Positions 45,596-46,948 of a stretch of 64,000 bases of DNA are shown piece by piece. Location of the stretch: the NCBI GenBank assembly GCA_937995595.1, contig CALKJW010000002.1:1-64000 (forward strand). Direction: 5' to 3'. Within the stretch, counting starts at the first letter, position 1, and each line of letters starts with the position of its first letter. A program made the translations under genes and the position numbers. This stretch comes from an uncultured Phycisphaerales bacterium. Its GTDB lineage: Bacteria > Planctomycetota > Phycisphaerae > Phycisphaerales > UBA1924. The notes under the pieces were generated by a model, which was not told the origin of the DNA, did no database searches, and saw nothing but the letters and a program-made list of their open reading frames with translations.

Positions 45596-46948
45596 TCATG
45601 CCGCGCGCCACGCGCGCGGGTCCTTGTCGTCGCGGAACACGCGCCGGTACAGCGTGTCGCGCTCGACGGGCTCGAAGCCCGCGTCGCGGATCGCCTTCTG
45701 CAGCGTCCAGACGTTCACTTCCTGGTGCGTCGGCGCGTCCTTGGCGCCCTGCGGCACCTTGGTGATGTCGTACCACACCACCGTGCCGTCGATGTCGTCG
45801 GCCCCGCACTGGAGCATCAACTGCGCCATCGGCAGCGTCTGCATGATCCAGAACGCCTTGACGTGCGCGAAGTTGTCGAGCATGAGCCGCGCGATCGCGA
45901 GCGTCCGCAGGTTCTCGAGCCCCGTCGGGCCCGGCAGGTGCTCCAGGTCGCTGCCATCGGGGAAGAACGGCAGCGGGATGATGGTCTGGAATCGGCCTTT
46001 GGTGGGCCGGCACTCCGTGCCGGCCGAAACAGCCGCATGTGGAGGGCTTGCACCCGGCACGGAGTGCCGGGCCACCTCGGACAAGGCTTCATCCTGCGCA
46101 TCCCGCAGCATCTGCATGTGCACGAGCCGCTCGCGCCGCTGCTCGATGTGCCCGTAGAGGATCGTCGCGTTGGTGTTCAACCCCAGCGCGTGCGCCTCGC
46201 GGTGCACGTCGAGCCAGACGTCCGAGCGGATCTTGCCCTTGAACGCCTCGTCGTGCACGCGGTCGTCGAACACTTCGGCCCCGCCGCCGGGCAGCGAGCC
46301 CAGACCCGCCTTCTTGAGTTCGCTCAGCACCCAGCGGATGCCCTCGCGCCGTGCCGCGCGCCCCTCATCGCTCGCGTCGTTCGCGCCCCTGTACACCTTC
46401 GCGATGCGCGCCAGGTGCACGACTTCCACCGCCGTGAACGCCTTGACGTGCAGGTCGCTGCCGAGCCGCTTCGCCTCATCGCGGATGGTCGAAACGAGTT
46501 CGGGGTAGTAACTCCAGGGCAGGTACGGGTGCAGCCCGCCGACGGAGTGAATCTCCGTCGCGCCGGCCTCGACGGCCTTGCGGACCTCCTCGCGGACGTA
46601 GGCCATGTCGCGCGTGTACGCGCCCGGCTCGTCCTTCTTGCGGTAGAACTCGCAGAACTTGCACGACAGCGCGCACACGTTCGAGTAGTTCAGGTGGCGG
46701 TTGATGTTGTAGTAGGCGATGCCACCCGCCCCCGGCGCGCCGTGCAGGCGGTTCCGCACGGTCGCCGCGAGTTCGCACACGCTCCAGATGTCCGGCGTCG
46801 TGTAGAGCAGGTCGCCGTCTTCGAGCGTCAACCGCTCGCCGCGCTCGACCTTCTCGCGGACCGCGTCCAGTCGACGGTCGCGGCCGCGCGTGTGCGCGCG
46901 TGCGCCGGCGAGGCCCCGGCCGGTTGGTTGTGCCGCGCTCGTGGTCAT
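45596..46948 (-). CDS. mqnE: Aminofutalosine synthase-like radical SAM enzyme with in-frame palindromic insertion
   Basis: A 450-residue radical SAM protein. NRHLNYSNVCALSCKFCEFY (about residues 80-100) gives the CxxxCxxC cluster motif. The rest follows the MqnE/MqnC pattern: GATEIHSVGGLHPYLPWSYY, VHLARIAKVY, GLNTNATILYGHIEQRRERL. MqnE condenses a carboxyvinyl chorismate product with SAM to aminofutalosine in menaquinone synthesis. Typical members have about 370-390 residues; the extra length is partly an insert of about 31 residues between LRDAQDE and GRFQTIIPLPFFP that is encoded by the repeat at 46001-46076. AGGAGG lies about 10 bases before ATG 46948. No other mqn genes are here. MqnC cannot be wholly excluded. 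Confidence 0.85.
   Translation of the reverse strand: MTTSAAQPTGRGLAGARAHTRGRDRRLDAVREKVERGERLTLEDGDLLYTTPDIWSVCELAATVRNRLHGAPGAGGIAYYNINRHLNYSNVCALSCKFCEFYRKKDEPGAYTRDMAYVREEVRKAVEAGATEIHSVGGLHPYLPWSYYPELVSTIRDEAKRLGSDLHVKAFTAVEVVHLARIAKVYRGANDASDEGRAARREGIRWVLSELKKAGLGSLPGGGAEVFDDRVHDEAFKGKIRSDVWLDVHREAHALGLNTNATILYGHIEQRRERLVHMQMLRDAQDEALSEVARHSVPGASPPHAAVSAGTECRPTKGRFQTIIPLPFFPDGSDLEHLPGPTGLENLRTLAIARLMLDNFAHVKAFWIMQTLPMAQLMLQCGADDIDGTVVWYDITKVPQGAKDAPTHQEVNVWTLQKAIRDAGFEPVERDTLYRRVFRDDKDPRAWRAA
46001..46076. repeat. 76-base palindromic element inside the MqnE-like gene
   Basis: Two 23-base arms (46001-46023 and 46054-46076) are inverted copies with one mismatch. Each arm is itself a near palindrome centred on GGCACTCCGTGCC. 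Thirty bases separate them. The element is read in frame and codes for part of an insert absent from typical MqnE proteins. Its look is that of REP-like or RPE-like repeats. Confidence 0.82.

Follow-up and report, generated by a model that had tools for sequence, protein, structure and literature searches.

A REPIN in frame within an mqnE-like gene of a Phycisphaerales bacterium, and RAYT genes within housekeeping genes of the order

The mqnE locus and its palindromic element

The window analysed here is a 64,000-nt stretch of DNA (positions 1 to 64,000 of contig CALKJW010000002.1) from an uncultured Phycisphaerales bacterium. It carries on its minus strand an mqnE-like gene that contains a 76-nt palindromic element. 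The features of the locus are as follows.

45596..46948, minus strand: mqnE-like gene for aminofutalosine synthase, a radical SAM enzyme (Pfam and NCBIfam; start codon at 46948 inferred)
45998..46081, minus strand: loop codons SEVARHSVPG-ASPPHAAV-SAGTECRPTK, contributed by the REPIN and its edges
46001..46076, minus strand: REPIN of two inverted GTGG-headed REPs and a 30-nt spacer (arm search, copy counts, RNA fold)
46001..46023, plus strand: REP copy 1, GGTGGGCCGGCACTCCGTGCCGG, head outward, with a 9-bp stem and a 3-nt loop
46024..46053, no strand: spacer between the REP arms, diverged from the congener, where the arms are identical
46054..46076, minus strand: REP copy 2, GGTGGCCCGGCACTCCGTGCCGG on the minus strand, GTGG head outward

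The arms are 23 nt each, 96% complementary (one mismatch) and 30 nt apart, and both have a GTGG tetranucleotide 5' of the palindrome, as repeats of the GT[AG]G REP superfamily do. Single arms form stem-loops (fold z-scores of -3.1 and -2.7) in the 20-40 nt range of REPs, and the two inverted REPs together make one hairpin, which is the arrangement of a REPIN. Folded as RNA, the whole element reaches -58.3 kcal/mol (z-score -6.5), and none of 200 shuffled sequences was equally stable. A preliminary description of this DNA had proposed 23-base inverted arms with one mismatch, each palindromic in itself, and an open reading frame across the element; both proposals are borne out, the minus-strand frame of mqnE running through. 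The REP consensus of the window's GTGG type is stop-free in all six frames, and the GTAG form of the REP has a TAG in one of the six.

In the MqnE protein, Pfam domains Radical_SAM (residues 87-278) and CofH_C (320-435) flank the loop encoded by the REPIN. The NCBIfam model for MqnE is the best match of the protein, with 376 bits, below the cut-off of 435. An AlphaFold2 model (mean pLDDT 72.6, pTM 0.78) gives pLDDT below 50 to residues 294-314, between a helix (271-293) and a strand (320-323); this is weak evidence of disorder, because four further stretches also fall below 50.

The loop was surveyed in 61 genomes of the family, in which 48 loops were readable (30 loci and 18 of 20 further regions), two fetched unreadable loops and 11 genomes being left out. 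The QD and FQ motifs stand apart in all 48, by 69-327 nt, and the window's loop, at 111 nt, is therefore not longer than usual for the family. It had been supposed that homologs join directly at this point. This does not hold, since a loop of variable length is present in 46 of 46 readable homologs outside the genus; the reported extra residues are extra relative to the NCBIfam MqnE model (protein residues 36-443 on model positions 1-351) and not relative to the loops of the family. The same insert in close homologs from unrelated phyla had been named as a sign of ordinary loop variation; among the 48 readable loops of family genomes the insert was seen only in the window and the congener, and a loop of differing sequence at this site is indeed ordinary in the family. 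No empty mqnE site was found, the loops of the nearest relatives being different ones. Three of the 48 loops have inverted arms that exceed shuffle level, namely those of both congeners and that of a genome of another genus (G059). The latter holds an unrelated REPIN (L296, 311-401; arms of 31-36 nt, the 36-nt arms being 92% complementary), which means that REPINs entered this loop on at least two occasions.

The congener (genome G047) carries the mqnE REPIN at the same position. Between it and the window's own genome (G000), 0 of 46 arm positions and 12 of 30 spacer positions differ, and the mqnE flanks differ at 63 of 623 positions, 55 of which are third positions (55 of 207). The chance of 16 unchanged arm codons is P about 0.005-0.007, and this excess conservation, measured over those 16 codons, weakly suggests conservation or conversion of the repeat itself. 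A hairpin retained because it serves the mRNA of mqnE, say by causing a pause or by stabilising the transcript, would also fit arms that are identical in two species while 27% of nearby third positions differ, and would fit the very stable fold. We consider such a role improbable, given that the same REP is found in a range of unrelated genes as well as at sites whose flanks are not clearly coding, and that only three of the 48 mqnE loops hold an inverted repeat beyond shuffle level.

Dispersed copies and their reading frames

The genome of the window comprises 3.11 Mb in 55 contigs. A 13-nt core of the repeat, GGCACTCCGTGCC, has 14 matches in it and none for the reversed control; in the congener there are 57 copies with at most one mismatch, again with none for the control. 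The repeat is thus dispersed and multicopy, as REPs are, and the further copies in the host genome that the preliminary description called for are present. Two other counts are less telling: within the window alone the core has two matches (at most one mismatch), which is not decisive, since 10 of 100 shuffles reached two or more, and the 23-nt form with up to three mismatches gives 39 matches in G000 against 10 for the control, some of them the same palindrome met from the opposite strand. Copies with one mismatch or none occur in 6 of the 163 genomes of the family (G000, 15; G047, 57; G002, 18; G018, 2; G086, 1; G089, 1), those of G002 carrying a GTAG head. An exact 25-nt form was found in 24 stretches of named genomes, 23 from Phycisphaeraceae bacterium ACE_PLA19 and one from Phycisphaerales bacterium Bin_61_1, in a search that may omit the window's own genome. 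One locus of G002 (L335, 1545-1813; G002:C12) has four direct GTAG REPs with an 82-nt period, in flanks without clear one-strand coding.

The core counts of G000 and G047 against their controls, the pair of GTGG heads and the fold z-score lead us to reject a chance palindrome. Ordinary variation of a loop whose length does vary across the family, combined with such a palindrome, retains a negligible probability against them.

Away from the ends of stretches there are 60 sites or clusters, 17 in G000 and 43 in G047. They were scored by codon usage, with a model trained on the window, which may suit G002 less, and a threshold of 0.15; the test passes over sites that lie 250 nt or less from the end of a stretch, for instance one in G047 (C25) and one in G002 (C20). 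Clear coding flanks on one strand were seen at 3 of the 17 and 12 of the 43 sites, and all 15 are stop-free and in the same phase on both sides, with none out of phase, where one third would be expected in the same phase without constraint. Two of the G000 sites sit between genes on opposite strands; at the remaining sites at least one flank lacks a clear coding signal. For random positions drawn from these loci, both flanks are coding in 68% (G000) and 48% (G047) of cases. REPs are depleted from genes, yet not excluded from them.

Pfam searches of the spanning frames show that at least 19 of the 60 sites or clusters are read in frame with an identifiable gene, a lower bound in that the candidate list may omit in-gene sites (gatB of G000, L020, was added by eye). 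Six of them fall within a single Pfam match, in genes for ileS, an aldehyde dehydrogenase, a PLP decarboxylase, gatB (in both G000 and G047) and a short-chain fatty acid transporter. Thirteen lie between matches of one protein, namely mqnE (two, that of the congener counted by 91% identity), valS (three), dihydrolipoamide acyltransferase (two), dprA, squalene-hopene cyclase, ffh, serS, a B12-binding/MeaB protein and a lipoyl/hexapeptide protein. At three further scanned sites (L112, L202, L207) only one of the two flanks matches a family. Copies both in genes and between them were thus seen, a distinction that the preliminary description had asked to be drawn. By eye, the gatB site and a second valS site are common to G000 and G047; gatB holds one REP in G000 (L020, 1501-1523) and two tandem REPs 30 nt apart in G047 (L138, 1471-1523), all in frame.

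In frame between clearly coding flanks are 15 of the 60 GTGG sites and 0 of the 14 GTAG sites of G002. Two of these 14, seen by eye, are the ends of a RAYT inside miaA, so the flank test misses some in-gene sites, and an explanation of the difference by the stop-free GTGG form as against the TAG-bearing GTAG form is suggestive only.

RAYT genes within housekeeping genes

A RAYT with the window's REP within about 1.5 kb was not found at the Y1_Tnp loci of G000 (2 of 2) or of G047 (10 of 11), and the source enzyme is therefore missing, unassembled or unread there. The two Y1_Tnp genes of G000 (L045, L046) were rejected as the source, having other palindromes alongside and none of the window's REP. 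At L046 (1797-1814; G000:C2) the Y1_Tnp-like frame starts beside the palindrome CGGGGGCTTACGCCCCCG, which is perhaps the REP of another, decaying RAYT.

The genome G002, from another genus of the family, does have a RAYT that carries the window's REP, in its GTAG form, at both ends. The repeat GGTAGCCCGGCACTCCGTGCCGG lies at 1174 (plus strand) and 1820 (minus strand) of locus L105, with the same stem, a GTAG head and the heads pointing outward as in the mqnE REPIN. This RAYT lies in frame within miaA, Pfam matching IPPT and Y1_Tnp in one frame, and GGTAGCCCGGCACTCCGTGCCGGGC is a candidate single-stranded REP substrate for the RAYT domain of the MiaA fusion.

With this RAYT as the query, matches were found in 141 of 400 genomes of the order. 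We read 91 loci. These are the listed matches down to E 1.6e-18, without that of G143 and one of those in G208, together with a weaker match in G067 and a further two Y1 loci of G047 (L257, L258); one locus without a match and six duplicates were removed, leaving 84. In 74 of the 84, host motifs stand in the same stop-free frame as the RAYT, a proportion that applies to this RAYT clade only, weaker matches being mostly in short frames. The hosts are valS (36), rdgB (19), leuS (16) and, once each, miaA, a kbl-like gene and hsp70. Host motifs were present on both sides in 70 of the 74, the other four being cut by contig ends or missing a motif. The remaining 10 loci are free-standing or unclear.

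Domain searches agree with the motifs. Y1_Tnp was matched in all five fusions scanned (below the cut-off in one, RdgB): in the ValRS, RdgB, MiaA, Kbl-like and Hsp70 fusions the host family is matched by two or three segments, and Y1_Tnp follows the best of these, which ends before the RAYT. No splicing domain was detected in the Pfam scans of these five. For LeuRS, the fusions are supported by motifs and by long frames on the same contigs that match TIGR00396; two insertion sites are in use, with TTRPDT following the insert in 14 cases and VDLY(I/V)GG in two. When modelled, the RdgB fusion (mean pLDDT 76.3, pTM 0.58) aligns with E. coli RdgB in a match that spans the insert (1k7k, E 4.5e-13); its RAYT part matches TnpA-REP bound to a REP hairpin (4er8, E 1.2e-7).

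Inverted arms of at least 16 nt with at most one mismatch surround 69 of the 72 in-gene RAYTs with enough flank, against 3 of 216 mismatched pairs. The in-gene RAYTs are thus Y1 HUH transposases between inverted REPs, the composition of a REPtron. In a crude scan without a control, the heads at the 74 loci were GTGG in 39, GTAG in 7 and other in 24, and four had no palindrome; stop-freeness was computed for the window's REP type only.

Some arrangements were noted by eye. The valS gene of G002 (L097, minus strand) holds another type of RAYT in frame, with the edges TSRDRQGA and PLPDGRGS, in the loop that holds the present clade in relatives. In an hsp70-like gene of G082 (L251), a peptide like that of a REP pair (GVPPASP...GRRDACPT) stands on both sides of the in-frame RAYT, as if a REPIN had been doubled. 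In the phylum, a valS-type RAYT was matched in at least 152 of 392 genomes, some of them from the order; outside the order, the matches listed are mostly short frames. Seven loci chosen there, with preference for long frames, include four RAYTs that by eye lie in frame inside other genes, namely alaS (L322), a DinG-like helicase gene (L323) and two methylase-like genes (L316, L328); L304 and L302 are unclear or free, and L309 yielded no reading.

The dN/dS ratio of the RAYT part is 0.09-0.38 in 11 of 13 computable pairs, that of the host parts being 0.09-0.35; of the other two pairs one is without amino-acid change and one saturated, dS is high in several, and the 13 are not independent of one another. 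These ratios indicate that the in-gene RAYTs are under purifying selection. A tree of 79 RAYTs (omitting the valS locus L186/L278, the short L272, L273, L274, and L258) has 10 host-label changes, with a minimum of 7, against 39.6 for shuffled labels; its topology indicates that RAYT lineages keep to their own host gene, with some jumps, and the well-supported branches alone are compatible with one origin per host gene. The valS guests of G099 and G101 differ at pS 0.009, the silent sites of the host at 0.38, and the near-identical tract extends from the left REP past the right REP into the host gene. The rdgB genes of G066 and G065 have the same pattern in weaker form (0.054 against 0.231). 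Such patterns suggest that the guest was recently transferred into an identical site. The valS genes of G099 and G101 are mosaic elsewhere too, so ordinary recombination could produce a near-identical guest.

Origin of the mqnE element and relation to known systems

Our preferred reading, which we regard as probable, is that the mqnE REPIN was copied in trans by a RAYT, landed in a tolerant loop of MqnE in an ancestor of the genus and has persisted there in frame. A RAYT (TnpA-REP) acting on REP hairpins in trans, by single-strand cutting and joining, would have made the copy. It would have landed in the length-variable loop between the two MqnE domains, in the ancestor of both known genomes of the genus, and would persist since it is in frame, is free of stops in six frames and adds residues where they presumably do little harm; the encoded loop is probably neutral. 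The autonomous unit, REP-RAYT-REP, which in this order is found in frame inside housekeeping genes, would be a larger occupant of the same niche.

The mqnE pair might instead be a scar, left where a REP-RAYT-REP unit lost its RAYT and collapsed to REP-REP. The outward layout is that of the RAYT locus of G002, RAYTs inhabit other housekeeping genes of the order, and in the valS loop that RAYTs occupy in relatives G000 has a single REP, G047 a different peptide that looks like a repeat. We think this unlikely, as all 48 readable mqnE loops are too short to hold a RAYT and a REP pair is itself a common mobile form.

As a REP pair in frame within a gene, the element is one more case of a kind already published: in the text of PMC3733652 available to us, intragenic REPs are described in several species, in frame, and REPs are reported from Planctomycetes (R. 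baltica). The suggestion that no such element had been described in planctomycetes was accordingly too strong for REPs in general. The element had also been likened to the Rickettsia palindromic elements (RPEs). The likeness holds for palindromic inserts that colonise many genes in frame, but the label does not, since the intragenic repeats of R. conorii that correspond to RPE-4 and RPE-6 are grouped in that text with the CGTC superfamily, and the CGTC tag is absent from the window's element, whose head is GTGG.

The closer match is to GT[AG]G REPs and REPINs as characterised in the accessible parts of PMC3733652 and PMC6006769, with a GTGG head, a short perfect stem, a small loop, dispersed copies and inverted dimers; in a relative, G002, this REP stem also bounds a RAYT. 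The differences are that about one third of the sites or clusters of the window's type lie in recognisable genes, while most REPs are reported as intergenic, and that the cognate RAYT was not found at either of the two Y1_Tnp loci of the window's own genome. In Opitutus terrae, which in the available text of PMC3733652 has the most intragenic copies of the GTAG type and one REP family that is mostly GTGG, and in other species, intragenic REPs are likewise in frame, often in pairs that encode 20-30 residues, and lie in conserved genes including those of tRNA synthetases. That case differs in phylum, sequence and host genes, and the same text makes no mention of a RAYT within a host gene.

The in-gene RAYTs, with their HxH motif and inverted REPs at both ends, resemble REPtrons (a TnpA-REP gene with its REPs), which the sources available describe as free-standing; here the whole unit is a domain-sized insertion in frame in a conserved enzyme. 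No report of a RAYT inside a host gene was found in the literature searched, which covered few subscription papers and is no proof of novelty.

Inteins and homing endonuclease genes are guests at a few conserved sites of housekeeping genes, in frame. The in-gene RAYTs are like them in the near-identical guest of a diverged host gene in one species pair, and unlike them in being single-strand HUH transposases rather than double-strand endonucleases, and in having no splicing domain in the five fusions scanned.

We tentatively propose that planctomycete REPtrons are selfish guests translated inside essential genes, at fixed loops, and spread between species, with REPINs as their non-autonomous offspring; from the sequence comparisons we regard this as quite possible, if somewhat short of probable. 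A RAYT with inverted REPs, often GTGG-headed, would occupy fixed loops of LeuRS, ValRS, RdgB and others, would be translated as a domain within the enzyme that harbours it, and would reach the same site in other species. Its decay by frameshift or nonsense mutation would then harm the host, and REPINs like that of mqnE would be non-autonomous offspring in the same niche.

How stable-looking, single-copy RAYT genes are kept is a question raised in the accessible text of PMC6006769. If the RAYT is an in-frame domain of an essential enzyme, decay would be punished at once and the gene could persist without benefit to the host. The in-gene RAYTs and REPs would also document which loops of universal enzymes tolerate insertions. 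They may, moreover, explain odd recurring peptides met in these sequences (TECRPT, GTGFQPV and SRDRQGA), which also occur in planctomycete annotations.
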